Below are positions 24,325 through 42,417 of a stretch of DNA of 43,285 bases, in pieces. The stretch lies in NCBI RefSeq assembly GCF_018139625.1, contig NZ_JAGSOH010000061.1:1-43285 (forward strand), in the 5' to 3' direction. This DNA comes from Actinospica acidithermotolerans (GTDB lineage Bacteria > Actinomycetota > Actinomycetes > Streptomycetales > Catenulisporaceae). Each line of letters opens with the position of its first letter. Position 1 is the stretch's first letter. The notes below the pieces were generated by a model. The model ran no database searches. It had not been told where the DNA came from and was given only the letters and a program-made list of their open reading frames with translations. The position numbers and the translations under genes are program-made.

Positions 24325-24391
24325 TCGGATCCACCCTGGCCGCTGACGGGGCTCGACAGGCGCGCTAGGGTGGCGGAGACAAACCAATAAA

Positions 24392-26062
<1,671 letters not shown>

Positions 26063-26469: not shown

Positions 26470-27492
26470 TCAGAGCCACCCGCGCTGCGTCGCCTTGTGT
26501 CCCGCCTCGAAGCGGCTCGAGGCCTCGAGATGCTCCATCAACTCGGCCATGATGCGGCGCACCGTGCGTACGGATACTCCCAACTTCCGCGCCGCCACGT
26601 CGTCCGTGTTGCCGGCCGCGAGAAAACGGAGCAGCGCAAGTTCCTGCTGCGTGGGCTCCCGTTCGTCGTCCGGATGCGGAGCCGGCTCGTCTATCGGCGT
26701 CGCCGCCGCCCAGCTGGTCTCGAACAGGTCGACCAGCGGTATCAGCAACGCGGGCTCGCGGACGACGAACATCTCCACGGGCAGCTGGGGCTGCCGATGG
26801 ATGATCGCGGCCACGGAACGGTCGACGATGGTCATCCGAACCGGCACGACCGGCGCGGAGCGGATCTCTCCACCCAGCCCGCTGAGCCAGCGGGCGTAGT
26901 CCAGGTTGCGGCGGTCGGCGAGGACCGAGTTCTGATAGAGGCTGCGGCCGGGCACTCCGCGCTGCGCCACCTCTTCGTCGAAGGGCCGTGCGGCATCCAG
27001 GACCTCGGGCCGCATCGGCTTGCCCGGAATCGTGGACCAGACGCTCTCCGTCGCCCGGAAGACGAGCCTCTCGATCCACGACTGGATCGGCTCCGGGCCC
27101 GTCAGCGTCTCCACGTCGGCGTGACCGAAGCCATCCTGAGGCGCCGGTCGCGATTCGAGAAGTTCGTTCATCGCGGATTGAAGCATCGAAAGCGAGGTGC
27201 TTTGTATCTTGAGAAGTTCGGACTGCTGGCGGATGAGCGTGTGGATCGCCCGTTCCATCGAGACCGGACGCAACTTCTGCGTCGGCTGCAGGCCGGGGCG
27301 CAGCAGGGTGAGGTCTGAGAGCTCGTCGACCGCGTCGACGGCCTCGGACGTGTCGATGCCGAGCGCCTCGGCGATCTGGGCGGCGTCCGCCTCCGGGGCC
27401 GAGTGCATCATGAGGTAGACCTGCACGCAGATGCTGTCCAAGCCGAGCGCGCCCAGGACCTGCTCGGCGATCGTGCTCGATGCGTCGCTCAT
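26470..27492 (-). CDS. TrmB/LuxR-type transcriptional regulator
   Basis: The 340-residue protein pairs two DNA-binding-type domains. Residues about 15-65 form a TrmB-like winged helix (LGLDSICVQVYLMM...DAAQIAEALGIDTSEAVDAVDELSDL style), and residues about 278-335 a LuxR/GerE-type HTH with QELALLRFLAAG and VAARKLGVSVRTVRRIM. The middle (about 100-270) is a probable ligand-binding or PLD-like region without catalytic motifs. It has no receiver domain, so it is a one-component sensor. AAGGAG and GAGG precede the ATG. It is divergent from a 56-codon secreted peptide gene with a 261-base gap, which suggests the peptide or its transport is what it senses or controls. Confidence 0.88.
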   Translation of the reverse strand: MSDASSTIAEQVLGALGLDSICVQVYLMMHSAPEADAAQIAEALGIDTSEAVDAVDELSDLTLLRPGLQPTQKLRPVSMERAIHTLIRQQSELLKIQSTSLSMLQSAMNELLESRPAPQDGFGHADVETLTGPEPIQSWIERLVFRATESVWSTIPGKPMRPEVLDAARPFDEEVAQRGVPGRSLYQNSVLADRRNLDYARWLSGLGGEIRSAPVVPVRMTIVDRSVAAIIHRQPQLPVEMFVVREPALLIPLVDLFETSWAAATPIDEPAPHPDDEREPTQQELALLRFLAAGNTDDVAARKLGVSVRTVRRIMAELMEHLEASSRFEAGHKATQRGWL

Positions 27493-27660
27493 CTGCCTCT
27501 TTGGCTCCTTATGATCGAGATCGCCCGCTTCTGTCCGCTGTGCTTGTCGGCTCGCTTCGATGCTCTGTGCGGCTTGGCACTATTATCCCTGGCAAGTAGC
27601 TGCCATGGGTTAGGGCTGCCTGAGTACGCGGATGTCCGTCACACTGAATTCTGCTGTCAG

Positions 27661-27736
27661 GAAACTAGCGGGTGTACCTCGTGGTGGACGGTACACGTTG
27701 CTGGTCCTCGCAACTAGCCTGCAGCCTTCGTATAGC
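27661..27736 (+). promoter_or_regulatory. Putative promoter and binding sites of the peptide gene
   Basis: GTGTACC (27672-27678) and GGTACAC (27690-27696) form a 7-bp inverted repeat with an 11-base centre. AACTAGC occurs as a direct repeat at 27663-27669 and 27712-27718. TATAGC at 27731-27736 is a likely -10, but no good -35 is seen, as expected for an activated promoter. The whole divergent gap is 261 bases. Confidence 0.45.
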
Positions 27737-27753
27737 GCTGATTCGAGGTTGAA

Positions 27754-27924
27754 ATGTCCAAGTTCCGAGCCGTTGTAGGCAGTCTGGCAGCAGTTGGCCT
27801 CATTGCCGCCCTTGGTGCCACTCTCACCTTCACCGCGTCTTCGTCGACCGGTCACACGGTCACGGCCGCTGTGGCGGAGTCCAACGCCAGCATCGCGTGC
27901 TACACCTGCGTCGGCGACGTCTGA
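27754..27924 (+). CDS. 56-residue secreted peptide precursor ending in a CxxC segment
   Basis: I do not recognise this gene. The product begins MSKFRAVVGSL with basic residues at 3 and 5, a hydrophobic stretch (about 6-28), and a Ser/Thr/Ala-rich spacer. A plausible signal-peptidase site lies after AVA at residue 41, which would leave a 15-residue peptide ending ACYTCVGDV with cysteines 49 and 52. GAGG lies 5 bases before the ATG (27745-27748). The gene is short enough to be missed by ORF length cutoffs. It is divergent from the LuxR-type regulator and 50 bases upstream of the glucosidase gene. It may be a peptide signal or a ribosomal peptide precursor; no modification enzyme is nearby. Confidence 0.75.
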   Translation: MSKFRAVVGSLAAVGLIAALGATLTFTASSSTGHTVTAAVAESNASIACYTCVGDV

Positions 27925-27974
27925 TCGGGTTCCCCGACTGAGCGGAATCGCCCGGCACACGGCAGACTGGAGCC

Positions 27975-30566
27975 GTGGCTGAGCAGACTCCTGAACGGCG
28001 GCGGTTGGCGCAAGCGGATGCGGGCGCGGGTTCCTGGCGCGGCTGGGGGCCCTACCTGTCCGAGCGGGCCTGGGGCTCCGTGCGCGAGGATTACAGCGCG
28101 GACGGCGACGCGTGGTCGTACTTCCCGTTCGACCACGCGCGCTCCCGCGTCTACCGCTGGAGCGAGGACGGGCTCGCCGGGCTCTCGAACCTGAACCAGG
28201 ACTGGTGCTTCGCGCTCGCGTTCTGGAACGGGCGCGATCCGATCCTGAAGGAGCGGGCCTTCGGGCTCGGGAACGCCGAGGGCAACCACGGCGAGGACGC
28301 CAAGGACTACTGGTGGTACGAGGACGCCACTCCCACCGGGTCCTGGCTGTCCTGGCGCTACCACTATCCGCAGGCGGAGTTTCCCTACGCGCGGCTGCGC
28401 GCCGAGAACGCGGGGCGCTCCAAGGAGCTCGGGGAGTTCGAGCTCGTCGACACGGGGGTGTTCGACGAGGACCGCTACTTCGTCATCACCGCCGACTACG
28501 CGAAGGCCTCGCCGCAGGCGTACGCCATCAGGCTGACCGTCGCCAACCAGGGGCCGGAGGCGGCGACGTTGCACGTGCTGCCGCACCTGTGGCTGCGCAA
28601 CATGTGGGCCTGGGGGCGTGCCGCGGACATCGAGGACGCGGTGGACGCGGGGCTGGTCGGCATCAGCGGGGCGCCGGGGCGGCTGAGCGCCCGGCATCCG
28701 CACTTCTCGCCTGTCACCCTCGCCGACGCCTCGGGCCTGAACCCCGAGGCGCTGCTCTGCGACAACGAGACGAACGCCGCGCTGCTGTTCGGCGGCGAGA
28801 ACGCGTCGGACTACCCGAAGGACGGCATCGGGGATCACGTCGTGCACGGGGCCGCGAGCGTGAATCCGGCGATGGAGGGGACCAAGGGCGCGCTGCACTA
28901 CGTGCTCGAGCTCGCGCCCGGCGAGGAGCGCACGCTGCATCTGACGCTCATGGCGGAGGAGGCGGACGGGCCGTACGGGGACGCGGACGCGGTCGAGGCG
29001 GTGCTGGTCGAGCGCAAGAAGGAGGCCGACGCATTCTACGCGGAGGTGGCGCCGGCCGACGCGAGTGCGCAGGACGCGCGGATCATGCGGCAGGCGTACT
29101 CGGGGCTGATCTGGGCCAAGCAGTTCTACCACTACGACGTGCACCGGTGGGCCGAGGGCGACCCCGCGCAGCCGGTTGCGCCCGCCCACCGCGCGCACGA
29201 CCGCAACCACTCGTGGTCGCATCTGTGGGCGCGCGACATCCTGCTCATGCCCGACCCCTGGGAGTACCCCTGGTTCGCCGCGTGGGACCTCGCCTTCCAC
29301 TGCGTCGCGATGGCCGGCGTCGACCCGGGCTTCGCGAAGGACCAGCTGTTCACGTTCCTCTCCCAGCGCTATCAGCACCCGAACGGGAAGTTCCCGGCGT
29401 ACGAGTGGGACTTCGACGACGTCAACCCGCCGGTGCTGGCCTGGGCTTCGCTGCTGGTCTACCGGGCGAACGGGCACGACCTGGAGTTCCTGCGGGCCTG
29501 CTTCCACAAGCTGCTGCTCGACTTCACCTTCTGGGTCAACCGGAAGGACGCTGAGGAGAACAACATCTTCGAGGGCGGATTCCTCGGCCTGGACAACATC
29601 GGGCCGTTCGACCGCTCCAAGCTGCCGGTGGACGGCGTGCTCGAGCAGTCCGACGGGACCGGCTGGATGGGCTTCTACTGCCTGGCCATGCTGGAGATCT
29701 CGATCGAGCTCGCGCTGCACGACCCGATCTACGAGGAGATGTGCGGCAAGTTCGCCGAGCACTATGCGTACATCGCGGCGGCGATCAACGACCACGGCCT
29801 CTGGGACGAGCAGGACGGCTTCTTCTACGACCGGCTGCGGCGCGGCGACGGCTCGGCGCTCGTGCTGCGGGTGCGCTCGATGGTCGGGGTGATCCCGCTG
29901 CTCGCCTCGCTGCCGGTCGACCGGGCCACCCTGGAGAGGCTGCCGCGCTTCAAGCGCCACCTCGAGGAGTTCACCACGCGCCGGCCCGAGTACGTGCGCG
30001 CCATCTGCCGGCCGCACAGCGGCGGCGGGATCCTCTTCTCGCTGGTGAATCCGGAGCAGGCGGAGCGGGTGATGACGCGGATCGCCGATCCGGCCGAGTT
30101 CCGCTCGCCGTACGGGCTGCGCTCGCTCTCCCGCGCGCACCTCGACAAGCCCTTCGAAGCAGACCTCGATAACGGCGTGCACGCCGCCGTCGACTACGAA
30201 CCCGGAGAATCCCGTTCCGGGCTCTTCGGCGGCAACTCGAACTGGCGCGGACCGGTCTGGATGCCGATGAACTTTCTGATGGTCCATACCATCGAGAAGA
30301 TCCTGGGCGCGCTGGAGGGCATGCCGACGAAGGTGGACCGGCGCGAACTCGCGACGCAATTGCGCGAGGGGCTCATCGGGCTGTTCCGGGCCGACGACAG
30401 GGGAATCCGGCCGGTGCTCGGCGAGGTGCCGCTGTTCCAGGGCGACCCGCGCTGGAGCGAGCGGCCGTGGTTCTACGAGTACTTCCACGGCGACACCGGG
30501 CGCGGGCTCGGCGCCGCCCACCAGACCGGATGGACCGCGCTCGTCGCCGAATTAATCCGCAGTTGA
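27975..30566 (+). CDS. GH63-type glucosidase (MGH1P-like family)
   Basis: The 863-residue protein matches the large bacterial glucosidase group of family GH63. The N-terminal beta domain covers about 20-350 and the (alpha/alpha)6 catalytic barrel the rest. Signatures include RAHDRNHSWSHLWARDI, GFLGLDNIGPFDRS, NSNWRGPVWMPMNFLMV (near residue 755) and the closing HGDTGRGLGAAHQTGW. There is no signal peptide, so it probably acts inside the cell on a glucoside such as a glucosylglycerate- or mannosylglycerate-like solute; the exact substrate is unknown. The GTG start at 27975 follows GGAG closely. A hairpin follows the stop. Confidence 0.9.
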   Translation: MAEQTPERRRLAQADAGAGSWRGWGPYLSERAWGSVREDYSADGDAWSYFPFDHARSRVYRWSEDGLAGLSNLNQDWCFALAFWNGRDPILKERAFGLGNAEGNHGEDAKDYWWYEDATPTGSWLSWRYHYPQAEFPYARLRAENAGRSKELGEFELVDTGVFDEDRYFVITADYAKASPQAYAIRLTVANQGPEAATLHVLPHLWLRNMWAWGRAADIEDAVDAGLVGISGAPGRLSARHPHFSPVTLADASGLNPEALLCDNETNAALLFGGENASDYPKDGIGDHVVHGAASVNPAMEGTKGALHYVLELAPGEERTLHLTLMAEEADGPYGDADAVEAVLVERKKEADAFYAEVAPADASAQDARIMRQAYSGLIWAKQFYHYDVHRWAEGDPAQPVAPAHRAHDRNHSWSHLWARDILLMPDPWEYPWFAAWDLAFHCVAMAGVDPGFAKDQLFTFLSQRYQHPNGKFPAYEWDFDDVNPPVLAWASLLVYRANGHDLEFLRACFHKLLLDFTFWVNRKDAEENNIFEGGFLGLDNIGPFDRSKLPVDGVLEQSDGTGWMGFYCLAMLEISIELALHDPIYEEMCGKFAEHYAYIAAAINDHGLWDEQDGFFYDRLRRGDGSALVLRVRSMVGVIPLLASLPVDRATLERLPRFKRHLEEFTTRRPEYVRAICRPHSGGGILFSLVNPEQAERVMTRIADPAEFRSPYGLRSLSRAHLDKPFEADLDNGVHAAVDYEPGESRSGLFGGNSNWRGPVWMPMNFLMVHTIEKILGALEGMPTKVDRRELATQLREGLIGLFRADDRGIRPVLGEVPLFQGDPRWSERPWFYEYFHGDTGRGLGAAHQTGWTALVAELIRS

Positions 30567-30691: not shown

Positions 30692-32620
30692 GTGCGCGCG
30701 GAAATTCCAATTCGTCCTTTCGGGGTGCGATTCGAGGTGGCAAAGCAGACTCAGGAGCGGATCGACGGGCGCGGACACTCGGTGCGCGAACTGTTCACCG
30801 GCCGGCGTTACGGCCTCGAGCACTACCAGCGCGAATACGACTGGACCCGCACGCACGTCACCGACCTCCTGAACGACCTGGCCGGGCGCTTCCTGGAGCA
30901 GTGGAACGAAGACCACGAACGCTCCGACGTCGCCGACTACCGACCGTATTTCCTCGGTCCCTTCGTGACCTATCCGGTGCCGGGAATGTCCTTCCTGGTG
31001 GACGGCCAGCAGCGGTTCACCACGCTGCTCCTGCTGCTGATCCGGCTGCGGCACCTGCTGACCGAGGCCGACGAGCACGCGGGCGCCGCGGTGCTGGACA
31101 ACATGATCTGCACCGTGCAGTACGGCGTGCCGACGTTCACCGTGCACGTGGACGAGCGCGAGCCGGCGCTGCGCCAGCTGCGCGCGGGCCGCGAGTACCC
31201 GGTGACCGAGCAGACGCCGCTGGCCGTGCGCAACATCTGCCAGCGCTACCGCGACCTGGTCGAGGACCTGCCGAGCGGGCTGCGCGGCGCGGCGCTGCCG
31301 TACTTCGTGGACTGGCTGCTCGAGCGGGTCTTCCTGGTGGAGATCTCGGCCAGGGACCGGGACCACGGCTGGGAGATCTTCGAGTCGATGAACGACCGCG
31401 GGGCCCGGCTGACGCCGCTGGACCTGCTCAAGTCCTTCGTGCTCTCCCGCGCGGACAAGGACCACAGCGCGCTCAACGCCGTATGGCGGCGGACGATGTC
31501 GGCCCTGGCGGTCACCGACGACCAGGCGCCCGGCGACTTCGTCAAGACCGTGCTGCGGGCCCGCTACGCGCCCGCCGACCAGGACACCGCGGAGCGGGTC
31601 GACAAGGCCTTCCACGAGTGGGTGCGGCAGAACCCGGACGCGATGGGCCTGGCCAGGCCGCGCGACTACCGGGTGTTCATCCGGGACACCATCCGGCCGC
31701 TCGCCGACCGCTACCGGACGCTGGTGGAGGCCAGTGCGGCGCCGGTGCGCGGCTTCGAGCCGGTGTTCTACAACGCGGCCAACGGCTTCGACAAGCAGCT
31801 CACGCTGATCATGGCGGCGATCGGCCCGAACGACACGGACGCCGCGTTCCGGGAGAAGTCCCGGCTGGTCGCCGCGTTCTGCGACCTGCTGCTCGCCCGG
31901 CGGATGGCGAACTACGCTTCGCTCACCGCGAACGACCTCGCCCTCTACATCAACGGGCTGATCATGCCGCTGCGCGAGGCGGCCACGGTGGACGACGTGC
32001 GCACCCTGCTGTCCGTGGAGATCGGCAAGATCGAGCACGGCTTCGCCGGCCTGGAGAACTTCGGGCTGCGCTCGGACAACCGCAAGCAGGTGCGCTACCT
32101 GCTCTCCCGGATGACCGGCTTCCTGGAGACCGGCTGCGGCCAGCCCGACCTGATCGCCGACTACCTCGGCTTCGGACCGAGCGGCCGGCCGTACGAGATC
32201 GAGCACATCTGGGCCGACCACTTCGGCCCCTACGCCGAGGAGGTCGGCACGCCGGAGCGCTTCCGCTCGGTGCGCAACCGCTTCGGCGCGCTGCTGCTGC
32301 TGCCCAAGGAGATCAACGCGGCCTTCCGGGACGACCCGTTCTCGCTCAAGGCGGAGCACTACCGGGCGCAGAACCTGCTGGCCAAGTCGCTGCACCCGCT
32401 CTGCTACGAGCGCAACCCGTCCTTCCGCAGGTTCATGCTGCGCTACGGGCTCACCGAGCTGTTCCGGCCGTACCCGCACACCTTCGGGATCACCTCGATC
32501 ACCGAGCGGCAGCGGCTCTACCGGTCGCTGTGCGAGCTGATCTGGGATCCCGTGAGGCTGGGCTTCACGACTCAGACCGAGCCGACGCCGGCGGTTCCCG
32601 CCGTCGGCTCAGTGCCGTAG
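30692..32620 (+). CDS. DUF262-DUF1524 nuclease (GmrSD/SspE-like), probable defence protein
   Basis: The 642-residue protein combines an N-terminal DUF262 ParB-like domain and a C-terminal DUF1524 HNH-type nuclease in one chain. DUF262 motifs: QREYDW (46-51), DGQQRFT (104-110), and FESMNDRGARLTPLDLLKS near 230. In the DUF1524 part, EIEHIWADHF holds catalytic-type His505, and NRFGALLLL takes the place of the usual NRLGNLTLL, followed by KEINAAFRDDPFSLK. Proteins of this layout cut modified or phosphorothioated phage DNA in an NTP-dependent manner. The start is uncertain: an in-frame GTG near 30737 has GAGG before it. No partner modification genes are adjacent. Confidence 0.88.
   Translation: MRAEIPIRPFGVRFEVAKQTQERIDGRGHSVRELFTGRRYGLEHYQREYDWTRTHVTDLLNDLAGRFLEQWNEDHERSDVADYRPYFLGPFVTYPVPGMSFLVDGQQRFTTLLLLLIRLRHLLTEADEHAGAAVLDNMICTVQYGVPTFTVHVDEREPALRQLRAGREYPVTEQTPLAVRNICQRYRDLVEDLPSGLRGAALPYFVDWLLERVFLVEISARDRDHGWEIFESMNDRGARLTPLDLLKSFVLSRADKDHSALNAVWRRTMSALAVTDDQAPGDFVKTVLRARYAPADQDTAERVDKAFHEWVRQNPDAMGLARPRDYRVFIRDTIRPLADRYRTLVEASAAPVRGFEPVFYNAANGFDKQLTLIMAAIGPNDTDAAFREKSRLVAAFCDLLLARRMANYASLTANDLALYINGLIMPLREAATVDDVRTLLSVEIGKIEHGFAGLENFGLRSDNRKQVRYLLSRMTGFLETGCGQPDLIADYLGFGPSGRPYEIEHIWADHFGPYAEEVGTPERFRSVRNRFGALLLLPKEINAAFRDDPFSLKAEHYRAQNLLAKSLHPLCYERNPSFRRFMLRYGLTELFRPYPHTFGITSITERQRLYRSLCELIWDPVRLGFTTQTEPTPAVPAVGSVP
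32579..32610. terminator. Bidirectional hairpin inside the 3' end of the DUF262 gene
   Basis: GAGCCGACG and CGTCGGCTC form a 9-bp stem with an inner GCGG/CCGC part. The convergent genes end 4 bases apart at 32620 and 32625. Confidence 0.6.
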
Positions 32621-40721: not shown

Positions 40722-40907
40722 ATGGCACCTCATGCACGTGTACGCGCACCCGAGCTCGTCGGCCGGGGCGGTTGGATCAACACCGCGGGGAACGCCGCAC
40801 CTGATCTGAGCGGCAAGATCGTCCTGCTCGACTTCTGGAAGAATAGCACCATGCAGCGAACTTCCGGAAGGGCGATCCAGCGCGATGCATCACCACAACG
40901 AATGTGA
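40722..40907 (+). pseudogene. N-terminal stub of a thioredoxin/NHL-repeat protein, cut by element insertion
   Basis: The first 39 codons read MAPHARVRAPELVGRGGWIN...LSGKIVLLDFW, matching the start of the thioredoxin-like NHL-repeat (NHLRC2-type) protein, which continues TFCCINCLHVLDELR in relatives. After LDFW the frame becomes KNSTMQRTSG and runs out of family into element DNA, stopping at 40907 inside the integrase gene. The active-site Cys motif is therefore lost. TAGATG at 40711-40716 is a likely leaderless -10. The C-terminal part should lie beyond the far end of the element. Confidence 0.8.
40833..40845 (+). other. Probable attachment-site junction (attL or attR)
   Basis: Similarity to the host gene stops after the codons TTC TGG (40833-40838). 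DNA from about 40839 is less GC-biased and leads into the integrase gene 46 bases later. The short core shared by both ends cannot be read without the other junction. Confidence 0.6.
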
Positions 40908-42417
40908 CCTCTACCTGCGGCTTTCTCTCGATCGTGAGGGTAAGACGGGCATCGAGCGTCAAGAGGCTGACTGCCGAGCGGAAGCGGCCCGACTCGGCCT
41001 GACCGTGCGTAAGGTCCACATCGACCGAGGCCGCAGCGGATACAAGTACGTGACGCGCAAGGGATTTGACGACGCACTTGCCGCTGTGACGGCGGGTGTG
41101 GTCGGCACCCTGATTGTGTGGAAGCTCGACCGGCTCAGCCGCAAGGGAATCGGCGAGATCGGCAGGGTCCTCGATGACCTCTCCCGAGTCGGCGCCCGCA
41201 TCGTCAGCGTTATGGACCGCAAGGACACGTCGGACGAGAGCGATCGAATCGCCATCGCCCTGCTCGCCGAGCTTGCGCGTCAGGAGTCCAAGAACATTGG
41301 CACCCGCGTTGGGAACGCAAAGCGCTACCTGCGCACCCGAGGCCAGTGGATAGGCGGCCAACCGCCCTACGGGCTCATGGTTGACCCGGAAACCAAGCGG
41401 CTCACCCCGGACCCCGATACCGCCGTGTTCGCGCGGCTCATCGCCGATATGGCGCTGTCGGGCGAATCGCTGACCGGCATAGCTCGGTTCCTGAACGCCG
41501 AGGAAATCGAGGCTCCGCGCGGGGGTGAGTGGAACGCCGGAACGCTGTCACAGCTACTCCGCGCACCCGCGTTCGCTGGCCTCATGCCAGAAACCGACTA
41601 CAGCGAAGCGCCGGACGGAACGCGCAAGTACTCGCATCGCGTGCGCGTCTACAGCGACCCCACGACGCACGAGCCGGTAGAGATCGGCGAGGGAATCATC
41701 AGCGACGGTGAGCGAGAGGTGATCCTTACGCTGATCGCGTCGCGCACCCGAGAGGACAGCCTTGGTCGCAAGCGGCCTACGCATGACGGGAGTGCGCTGC
41801 TTACCACGCTGATTCACTGCGGGGTGTGCGAGCGGCGAATGCATCGGGTCGGCGGGTCGTACCGCTGTATGGCCACACGCGCCGGTAACCGGTGCCCGGG
41901 GGCGAACGTCATGGCCGACGCAATAGACGCGTACGTGTCCGATGCGTTCCTTACTCGACTGCCAGCGAGCGAGCCTGACGACCCGCTGCTTATCGCTGTT
42001 GCTGACAGGTGGGTCCGCAAGGCCGATCCCGAACTGTTCGCGAAGCGCGACGCCATTAGGGCCGAACTGGACGCCCAGGAATCGGCAATGGATCGGTTGA
42101 TCGAGGATCGGGAGAGGCCCGAATTCCAAGGACAGCGGGGACGCGAGCGGTATGACAAGGCAGTGAGCCGAATCATGCGCCGCACGGCAGGACTAGAGGC
42201 CGATCTCAGCGCACTTCCGACCCCTGCTGTGAACGTGGGACCGCTGCTCGACTCTGAGACGCTGGTACCGGCTTGGGAGGGCGCAGACCTCGACCGCAAG
42301 CGCGAGTATCTGCGGCTCGCTATCGACCGCGTGAGCGTCAGCAAGGGACAGCGCGGCAAGCGGTTCAACGGGCATGAGCGCGTCACGATCGAGTGGGCCG
42401 AGCCAGCCGACGAGTAG
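40885..42417 (+). CDS. int: Large serine recombinase (integrase)
   Basis: The 510-residue protein has a resolvase catalytic domain (about 5-150) with Y10, R12 and nucleophile S14 in LYLRLSLD and the later segment LARQESKNIGTR. A recombinase domain (about 155-265) follows with GGQPPYGLMVD, then a zinc ribbon with C312, C315, C328 and C337 and a coiled-coil region (about 375-415). This is the layout of phiC31-type integrases. It integrates the element at the junction 46 bases upstream. ATG 40885 is likely but has only a distant GGAAGGG. Codon use is less GC-rich than chromosomal genes. A directionality factor is not seen. Confidence 0.96.
   Translation: MHHHNECDLYLRLSLDREGKTGIERQEADCRAEAARLGLTVRKVHIDRGRSGYKYVTRKGFDDALAAVTAGVVGTLIVWKLDRLSRKGIGEIGRVLDDLSRVGARIVSVMDRKDTSDESDRIAIALLAELARQESKNIGTRVGNAKRYLRTRGQWIGGQPPYGLMVDPETKRLTPDPDTAVFARLIADMALSGESLTGIARFLNAEEIEAPRGGEWNAGTLSQLLRAPAFAGLMPETDYSEAPDGTRKYSHRVRVYSDPTTHEPVEIGEGIISDGEREVILTLIASRTREDSLGRKRPTHDGSALLTTLIHCGVCERRMHRVGGSYRCMATRAGNRCPGANVMADAIDAYVSDAFLTRLPASEPDDPLLIAVADRWVRKADPELFAKRDAIRAELDAQESAMDRLIEDRERPEFQGQRGRERYDKAVSRIMRRTAGLEADLSALPTPAVNVGPLLDSETLVPAWEGADLDRKREYLRLAIDRVSVSKGQRGKRFNGHERVTIEWAEPADE

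Follow-up and report, generated by a model that had tools for sequence, protein, structure and literature searches.

In the window analyzed here, a 43,285-nucleotide stretch of DNA from the 7.9-Mb genome of Actinospica acidithermotolerans, thiC and a glycoside hydrolase gene flank a pair of divergently oriented genes, one coding for a regulator and the other for a short peptide precursor. The sequence-only reading of this DNA had drawn attention to a 56-codon ORF at 27754 facing the regulator, and both ORFs are confirmed at their coordinates. The principal features are as follows.

26470 to 27492, minus strand: 340-aa regulator, with a predicted TrmB-type winged helix (residues ~10-80), long helix (79-113), PLD-like domain (124-268), and LuxR HTH (276-340)
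27575 to 27579, no strand assigned: weak extra TGGCA half-site beside the palindrome, PWM instance TTGGCACTATTATCCCTGGCAAGTAGCTGCCAT
27590 to 27605, no strand assigned: predicted operator TGGCAAGTAGCTGCCA, TGGCA-N6-TGCCA, one exact copy in the window versus 0.04 expected
27754 to 27924, plus strand: peptide precursor gene of 56 codons, 56-aa product MSKFRAVVGSLAAVGLIAALGATLTFTASSSTGHTVTAAVAESNASIACYTCVGDV, tail SIACYTCVGDV
27877 to 27921, plus strand: candidate mature region ESNASIACYTCVGDV after a putative AVA cut, conserved part approximately ACYTCV
27975 to 30566, plus strand: MGH1-like glycoside hydrolase gene (PF22422, E 2.9e-26), starting 50 nt past the peptide stop

The small ORF opens with an ATG that is preceded, five bases upstream, by a GAGG run (27745-27748), and its product displays a basic N-terminus, then a hydrophobic core and then a polar CYTC tail, NASIACYTCVGDV. 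These features bear out its earlier description as a precursor with a CxxC end, which would probably be exported. The mature peptide of about 15 residues proposed for it follows from one possible AVA cut; the conserved stretch is shorter, being limited to ACxxC both within the genus and across the 19 distinct CxxC segments collected below. At the orthologous position, both of the other genus genomes searched hold an ORF with this motif (TACLACF in L045 and VACAACL in L046), followed by a longer stretch than in the window; an MS[KR]F start and ACxxC are common to these ORFs, with little else alike. GC by codon position in the small ORF is 0.57, 0.61, and 0.75, as against a GC of 0.57 for the 261-nt spacer and third-position values of 0.87-0.95 in the neighboring genes. 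With the 56-aa peptide as the query, its own genome yielded besides itself a single match at E 1.18, the best match outside the window in 99 genomes (its own included) was not significant (E 0.0187), and tblastn recovered no match in the other two genomes of the genus. The region from 27450 to 28050 contains no match to a sigma-70 type promoter or terminator and none to Rfam at E<=1.

The neighbors of the pair code for ThiC, the glycoside hydrolase, a GmrSD-type protein, and a phosphoesterase. The order thiC-regulator-glycoside hydrolase-GmrSD is kept in both of the other genus genomes, with the peptide ORF between the regulator and the glycoside hydrolase. Because the glycosidase gene starts just behind the peptide stop and follows in both genus members, it may be a co-transcribed target or output of the pair here; no homologue of it was found beside regulators in three regions of 14 kb each, drawn from two further family genomes. 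A scan of 26 window proteins, which took in the genes flanking the pair and left at least 14 of the 37 picked ORFs, all more distant or doubtful, outside it, revealed no gene for the processing, modification, or transport of peptides. Elsewhere in the window, a TPP riboswitch (24384-24492, 59.7 bits) lies directly upstream of thiC and is also present in the same-genus locus L274. The GmrSD-type gene (30692-32620) that comes after the glycosidase is 92% identical in both genus members, a very high conservation for a putative restriction or defence gene, and a large serine recombinase with Resolvase, Recombinase, and Zn-ribbon domains (40885-42417) is situated near the contig end.

Domain architecture of the regulator

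The regulator had been described as combining an N-terminal TrmB-like HTH and a C-terminal LuxR-type HTH. The latter is recovered above the Pfam cut-off (PF00196, GerE/LuxR HTH; 27.1 versus 23.5 bits), while the TrmB match in the window protein stays below its own (20.9 versus 25.6 bits). At E<=0.01, 56 of 74 family members match TrmB (PF01978; best 2.8e-10) and all 74 match GerE, in agreement with that description. An AF2 model based on 74 homologues (pLDDT 88.4, pTM 0.58) places in order the winged helix, the long helix, an alpha/beta domain with strands at 127-244, and the LuxR HTH. The best Foldseek matches of this model are archaeal TrmBL2 (5bpd, E 9.7e-14) and TrmB (3qph, E 1.2e-08), and a profile search of PDB sequences agrees, with TrmBL2 matched over profile positions 11-255 at E 1.6e-05. 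The alpha/beta domain superimposes on the PLD-family nuclease NucT with a Z of 17.7 (2.6 A, 137 residues) and on the sugar-binding domain of TrmB (2f5t) with a Z of 14.7 (128 residues). Hence, of the "large middle domain" with no ligand assigned to it in the sequence-only reading, the domain stands and its fold is recognizable as the PLD-like fold of TrmB.

Given the winged helix, the PLD-like fold, and the LuxR HTH, the model identifies the protein as a predicted TrmB-type one-component regulator carrying a second DNA-binding domain; we take it to be cytoplasmic. It shares with archaeal TrmB and TrmBL2 the winged helix, the long helix, and the PLD-like domain, which in archaeal TrmB is a sugar-binding domain according to the title of 2f5t, but has in addition the LuxR HTH at its C-terminus and lies divergent to the gene of a putatively secreted peptide; its domain arrangement also differs from theirs, with an rmsd of 27.8 over 238 residues for 5box. 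With the LuxR quorum-sensing receptors TraR, RhlR, and QscR it has the C-terminal LuxR/GerE HTH in common (RhlR 7r3h, Z 11.9, 65 residues), whereas its sensor region matches PLD/TrmB folds. Pfam gave no autoinducer-binding domain match for the window regulator, and structures ranked for residues 124-268 are PLD/TrmB folds, absence from such a list not amounting to exclusion. There is also no TPR among the 20 Pfam families matched at E<=10, and no RRNPP receptor in the PDB structure list for the regulator, which by itself excludes nothing.

Recurrence of the pair and its C-terminal tails

The survey sample comprised 192 distinct regulator loci, mostly of Streptomyces, Kitasatospora, and Catenulispora-type. 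Under a first rule, the short ORF had to be of 35-115 aa with a crude signal-peptide score, start at most 1,100 nt from the regulator, and bear a tail with either a W among its final 10 residues or a CxxC among its final 25. A divergent ORF of this kind is present at 104 of the 192 loci, as against 7/192 when that stretch is read on its opposite strand and 3/129 and 7/129 downstream of the regulator (in the 129 loci with enough sequence); the rule was set after the first loci had been viewed and some loci are close kin, so that these counts do not equal independent trials. Within 600 nt, 76/192 family loci score versus none of the 23 usable loci of other LuxR-type regulators (30 fetched from four of the same genomes), and three of four further loci outside the 192, which served as a hold-out set of small size, also have a tail-bearing ORF. 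A looser rule raises the count to 114, of which four (L093, L222, L232, L233) look spurious by eye, and leaves 78 loci with no tail-bearing ORF. Inspection of 27 misses of the first rule revealed several real precursors that fall under its thresholds, e.g., L166, where SWD occurs seven times (one copy being partly unread), and nothing convincing at, among others, the Kineosporia, Actinomadura, and Plantactinospora loci L214, L216, L231, and L230. More distant members of the class (e.g., L214, L216, L230, L247, L248) are without a tail-bearing ORF.

The regulators themselves are widely distributed: an 18-regulator profile finds homologues at E<=1e-30 in 197/197 genomes of the order sample (at most 11 candidates scored per genome), where the main family is that of Streptomycetaceae (the L159 regulator of Streptomyces avidinii is a 100% match to the first row of one regulator alignment, which stems from G173), and 55/296 genomes of the class sample have homologues at E<=1e-60. 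The window regulator alone as a query found no related named loci; the 80 named loci stem from an alignment of eight Streptomyces-type regulators. In the window's own family, which includes Actinocrinis puniceicyclus (L215, its regulator a 100% match to the L049 row, from G004), homologues occur at E<=1e-12 in all 14 genomes searched, and 17 of 29 fetched loci (the window included) have a divergent signal-peptide-like ORF ending in CxxC, e.g., as ACLACF, ACAACL, AACGACWE, ACTSCWG, PCSSCGG, VCLSCWG, or ACIGCW. The remaining loci have Trp tails (L048, L049, L061, L068) or none. Twenty loci have CxxC tails under each of the two rules, with the peptide starting 253-373 nt from the start of the regulator match. 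They fall in two genus codes (g1 and g2) of the window's family, a third (g3) having Trp tails; all CxxC loci under the looser rule come from this family, and the tails found outside it carry Trp. Thus, a C-terminal CxxC is conserved across genera beside regulator homologues, as had been predicted should the pairing be genuine, and the family of pairs is wider than initially guessed. This recurrent divergent pairing supports the earlier suggestion of a candidate peptide signaling pair, in which the peptide would be the ligand of the regulator.

More than one pair may reside in a genome. Among five paralogous loci viewed in the window's genome, only L004 has a matching small ORF (tail DDLSWG), none being seen at the other four, with the upstream sequence of L007 too short. 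Genome G061 holds several pairs, with tails SINWD (two loci), TTVWE, NLNWD, and DSGWQ. A plasmid of Streptomyces sp. NBC_00998 encodes an 84-aa homologue of the peptide annotated as a hypothetical protein, which casts doubt on the earlier remark that such genes are too short for most gene callers. Regulator homologues (E<=1e-20) are found in 67 plasmid records, 65 of them from Streptomyces. Three plasmid loci were viewed, that of NBC_00998 with the peptide gene and L279 and L281 with no tail-bearing ORF. As regulator homologues sit on plasmids, one with a peptide gene, large linear plasmids may be another vehicle for these pairs. A related Streptomyces locus gave no match to phage records.

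Sorted by their last motif under the looser rule, the tails fall into the classes WD (48), WG (24, counting the CVCW tail of L048), CxxC (20), WQ (11), and others (11). Streptomyces precursors end, for instance, in xIGWD, SINWD, and DSGWQ, and the commonest ends among 45 WD precursors are SINWD (11), VIGWD (10), and GIGWD (8). The last three-letter core is found 2-5 times in 47 of the 92 Trp-tail precursors scored, with the L179 precursor of S. lavendulae displaying five copies of VIGWD. Across the 45 WD-ending precursors, conservation lies in the last four residues and declines upstream: residue-altering codon changes are seen in 0.21 of pairs at position -4, 0.55 at -3, and 0.76-0.92 from -5 upstream, positions -1 and -2 being fixed by the choice of rows. 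Among the 19 distinct segments of the window's tail class, C-x-x-C comes after A or P in 13 and ahead of W in 10; in the window, the next residue is V. The median dN/dS of the precursors is mildly below 1 (0.69, 30 pairs) and several pairs exceed 1, as expected if little besides the tail is under constraint. Since conservation sits in a short C-terminal stretch, the kept part of these precursors is the short C-terminal peptide, with the remainder behaving as leader or spacer. Some precursors are short and have no signal segment, such as the 20-aa one of L097. At L097 (3144-3206) and L093, mini-precursors of 20-22 aa, MQRTRSAQAAAVTADTTAWE and MLRTHLAQAAAVSAATSTTAWE, keep the TTAWE tail without the hydrophobic segment seen in relatives such as L115 and L119, which might reflect decay or another export route.

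The type of tail follows the regulator tree. Mapping the four large tail classes (99 rows) onto a regulator tree with 186 members requires 10 changes versus a mean of 46.9 upon shuffling of the labels, with none of 200 shuffles as low, a contrast inflated by near-copies; this tracking could reflect shared descent alone. Between the window and the other two genus genomes, the regulator is 52-54% identical, while the nine flanking ORFs with hits range over 62-94% (thiC 90%, glycoside hydrolase 76%, GmrSD 92%), with the smallest value belonging to a NERD protein. Inside the regulator, identity is lower in the connecting helix, at 43-47%, and in the PLD-like domain, at 42-50%, as compared with 63-66% in the winged helix and 71% in the LuxR HTH. 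Taken together, a tail type that follows regulator phylogeny and a sensor half less conserved than the HTHs are as expected of a ligand and its receptor. Rapid divergence of both ligand and sensor fits specificity drift, though relaxed constraint would look alike.

The predicted operator palindrome and a third gene

The form TGGCANNTANNTGCCA of the spacer palindrome, modeled on the sites of the three genus members themselves, is present a single time per genome in these three genomes, the window's included, and always in this spacer. More generally, TGGCA-N6-TGCCA with up to one mismatch is found in 67/192 upstream regions, 12/131 downstream regions, and 2/192 regulator genes, and exact copies in 25 upstream regions, 1 downstream region, and no regulator gene. 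In a seed search, 21-26 of 181 upstream regions contained palindromes of the TGGCA and GCACC types versus 0-1 in one mononucleotide shuffle, and GC-rich palindromes, which were more frequent in the shuffle, turned up as well; a PWM settled on TGGCACCAAGGTGCCAGGC..CTTGGTGCCA in 93 of the 181 regions, a count that is circular, the matrix having been built on the same set. The palindrome is missing in some paralogue clades (e.g., L056, L063, L099), and no signal came from folding the operator as a single strand (z -0.53). Throughout the three genomes TGGCA-N6-TGCCA is present in 5, 3, and 5 copies, not commoner than its reversed control (3, 8, and 4); therefore, we claim no wider regulon. With the genus form unique per genome and the looser form at background, the palindrome points to a nearly private operator, and to local autoregulation in preference to a large regulon.

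A third gene, coding for a protein of ~85-140 aa with the pattern LLWAHAxPxDGLEHVRxR, recurs at 135/192 loci, at 116 of them plainly on the divergent side; it is spread over L077-L098, L159-L238, and others, and is absent beside the window regulator. Four examples showed no significant Pfam match. One of them is modeled (pLDDT 93.2) with the beta-alpha-beta-beta-alpha-beta order of a ferredoxin-like fold, and a search of the PDB with this model gave no match at E<=0.001. We speculate that this ferredoxin-fold protein may modulate the signaling loop. At L201, the third-gene protein takes the place of a tail, reading in one frame with a signal-peptide-like start, possibly as a precursor/third-gene fusion.

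A proposed signaling loop and its alternatives

Starting from the conserved gene pair, its families of tails, the nearly unique palindrome, and the predicted fold of the regulator, we propose, with a probability of roughly two in three, that the pair constitutes a secreted peptide autoinducer and its cytoplasmic receptor under local autoregulation. The small gene would be translated into a Sec-exported precursor, from which extracellular proteases would free a short C-terminal peptide; in the window's lineage, the CxxC peptide would probably form a disulfide loop. The peptide might then re-enter the cell via an oligopeptide permease and bind the PLD-like domain of the TrmB/LuxR-type regulator, which in its peptide-bound state would alter its hold, in either direction, on the TGGCA-N6-TGCCA operator. 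In this way the regulator would govern how strongly its own peptide gene is expressed and, in the window, probably also the glycosidase gene that follows.

The strongest competitor, which we regard as improbable without being negligible, is that the regulator senses another ligand, for example a sugar or metabolite as in archaeal TrmB, and merely controls the peptide, which would serve as a secreted effector, for instance as an antimicrobial, as a surface peptide, or as a CxxC peptide active toward metals or in redox reactions. Such a role would suit the TrmB/PLD-like sensor domain, one match of which is the sugar-binding domain of archaeal TrmB, the glycosidase gene behind the peptide gene in this genus, and the CxxC tails, which could bind metal or serve redox chemistry. 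However, the glycosidase does not accompany the regulators in the three regions from other genomes of the family; the tail type follows regulator phylogeny, with the sensor half less conserved than the HTHs; and many tails are of about 4-5 residues repeated per precursor, which would be unexpected for an antimicrobial or a metal carrier. It is considerably less probable that the peptide is the precursor of a modified natural product (RiPP) and the regulator its pathway regulator. Their small size, their leader, and their repeated C-terminal cores do make these precursors look RiPP-like, but the leader shows Sec-type features, the 26 window proteins scanned, among them those encoded directly beside the pair, include no recognized modification enzyme, none is listed in the incomplete gene table beside one peptide-bearing plasmid locus, and the recurrent extra gene codes for the small ferredoxin-like protein, four examples of which are without a significant Pfam match. 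Least credible is a non-functional, decayed or chance ORF in the window within a family that is real elsewhere, a view to which the want of a significant match outside its own locus and a third-position GC below that of its neighbors lend something, but against which stand the position and ACxxC kept in both other genus genomes and an intact start, ribosome-binding run, signal-peptide pattern, and palindrome.

The autoinducer reading invites comparison with known systems. RRNPP receptors, as in PlcR-PapR, ComR-ComS, and Rap-Phr, are defined by an all-helical TPR peptide-binding domain. The RRNPP systems of Firmicutes couple an adjacent short propeptide with a cytoplasmic receptor and use a short C-terminal signal, according to the available text of PMC10075063. 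The window's family is alike in its adjacent short propeptide (secreted by a crude score) and putative C-terminal signal. It differs in its TrmB/PLD-LuxR receptor, which has no TPR match and a predicted alpha/beta sensor rather than a helical repeat, and also in being found in Actinomycetota, in the divergent orientation of its genes, and in precursors with repeated cores and tails of the CxxC or Trp kind. By its modeled receptor, the window regulator is thus not an RRNPP member, and the likeness to Firmicutes units seen by the sequence-only reading holds for the gene layout and fails for the receptor fold. The gamma-butyrolactone systems (A-factor/ArpA) use enzyme-made small molecules and TetR-type receptors; the window's family would share with those of Streptomyces cell-cell signaling, a cytoplasmic receptor, and the same bacteria, but offers a gene-encoded peptide and an unrelated receptor. 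More generally, signals of Actinomycetota are described as typically enzyme-made small molecules and oligopeptides as the rule in Firmicutes in the available text of PMC10075063, and enzyme-made small molecules are those named for Actinomycetota or Streptomyces in that of the review PMC13220807.

A parallel for uptake is BldK of Streptomyces coelicolor, a permease reported in the text available from PMC9640686 to import a 655-Da extracellular peptide, with different strains perhaps using different peptides; that text names no gene for the peptide. Like the BldK signal, the peptides proposed here would be short, extracellular, and probably taken up by an oligopeptide permease in streptomycetes. 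A comparison of tail masses with the 655-Da signal was dropped, its three matches (653.2-655.2) among up to 114 tails at five lengths being such as could arise by chance.

The open-access literature, in the text available, yielded no account of this pairing; with most subscription papers and bioRxiv outside that scope, this is weak evidence of novelty. Our findings suggest a widespread and apparently undescribed peptide-signal family in antibiotic-producing bacteria. Extending this, we give slightly better than even odds to an undescribed, order-wide class of gene-encoded peptide pheromones in Streptomyces and relatives, with Sec-exported precursors, 4-8-residue Trp or CxxC tails that are often repeated, a TrmB/PLD-LuxR receptor of its own for each, a nearly private operator, and several distinct channels per genome, which may include as yet unnamed peptides of BldK-type permeases. 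If so, the TrmB/PLD fold would gain a peptide-sensing role, and the tail peptides would furnish concrete candidates for the peptides taken up by permeases such as BldK. A peptide/receptor family repeated per genome in antibiotic producers would also provide defined, synthesizable peptides of 4-15 residues to try as switches of development and metabolite production.
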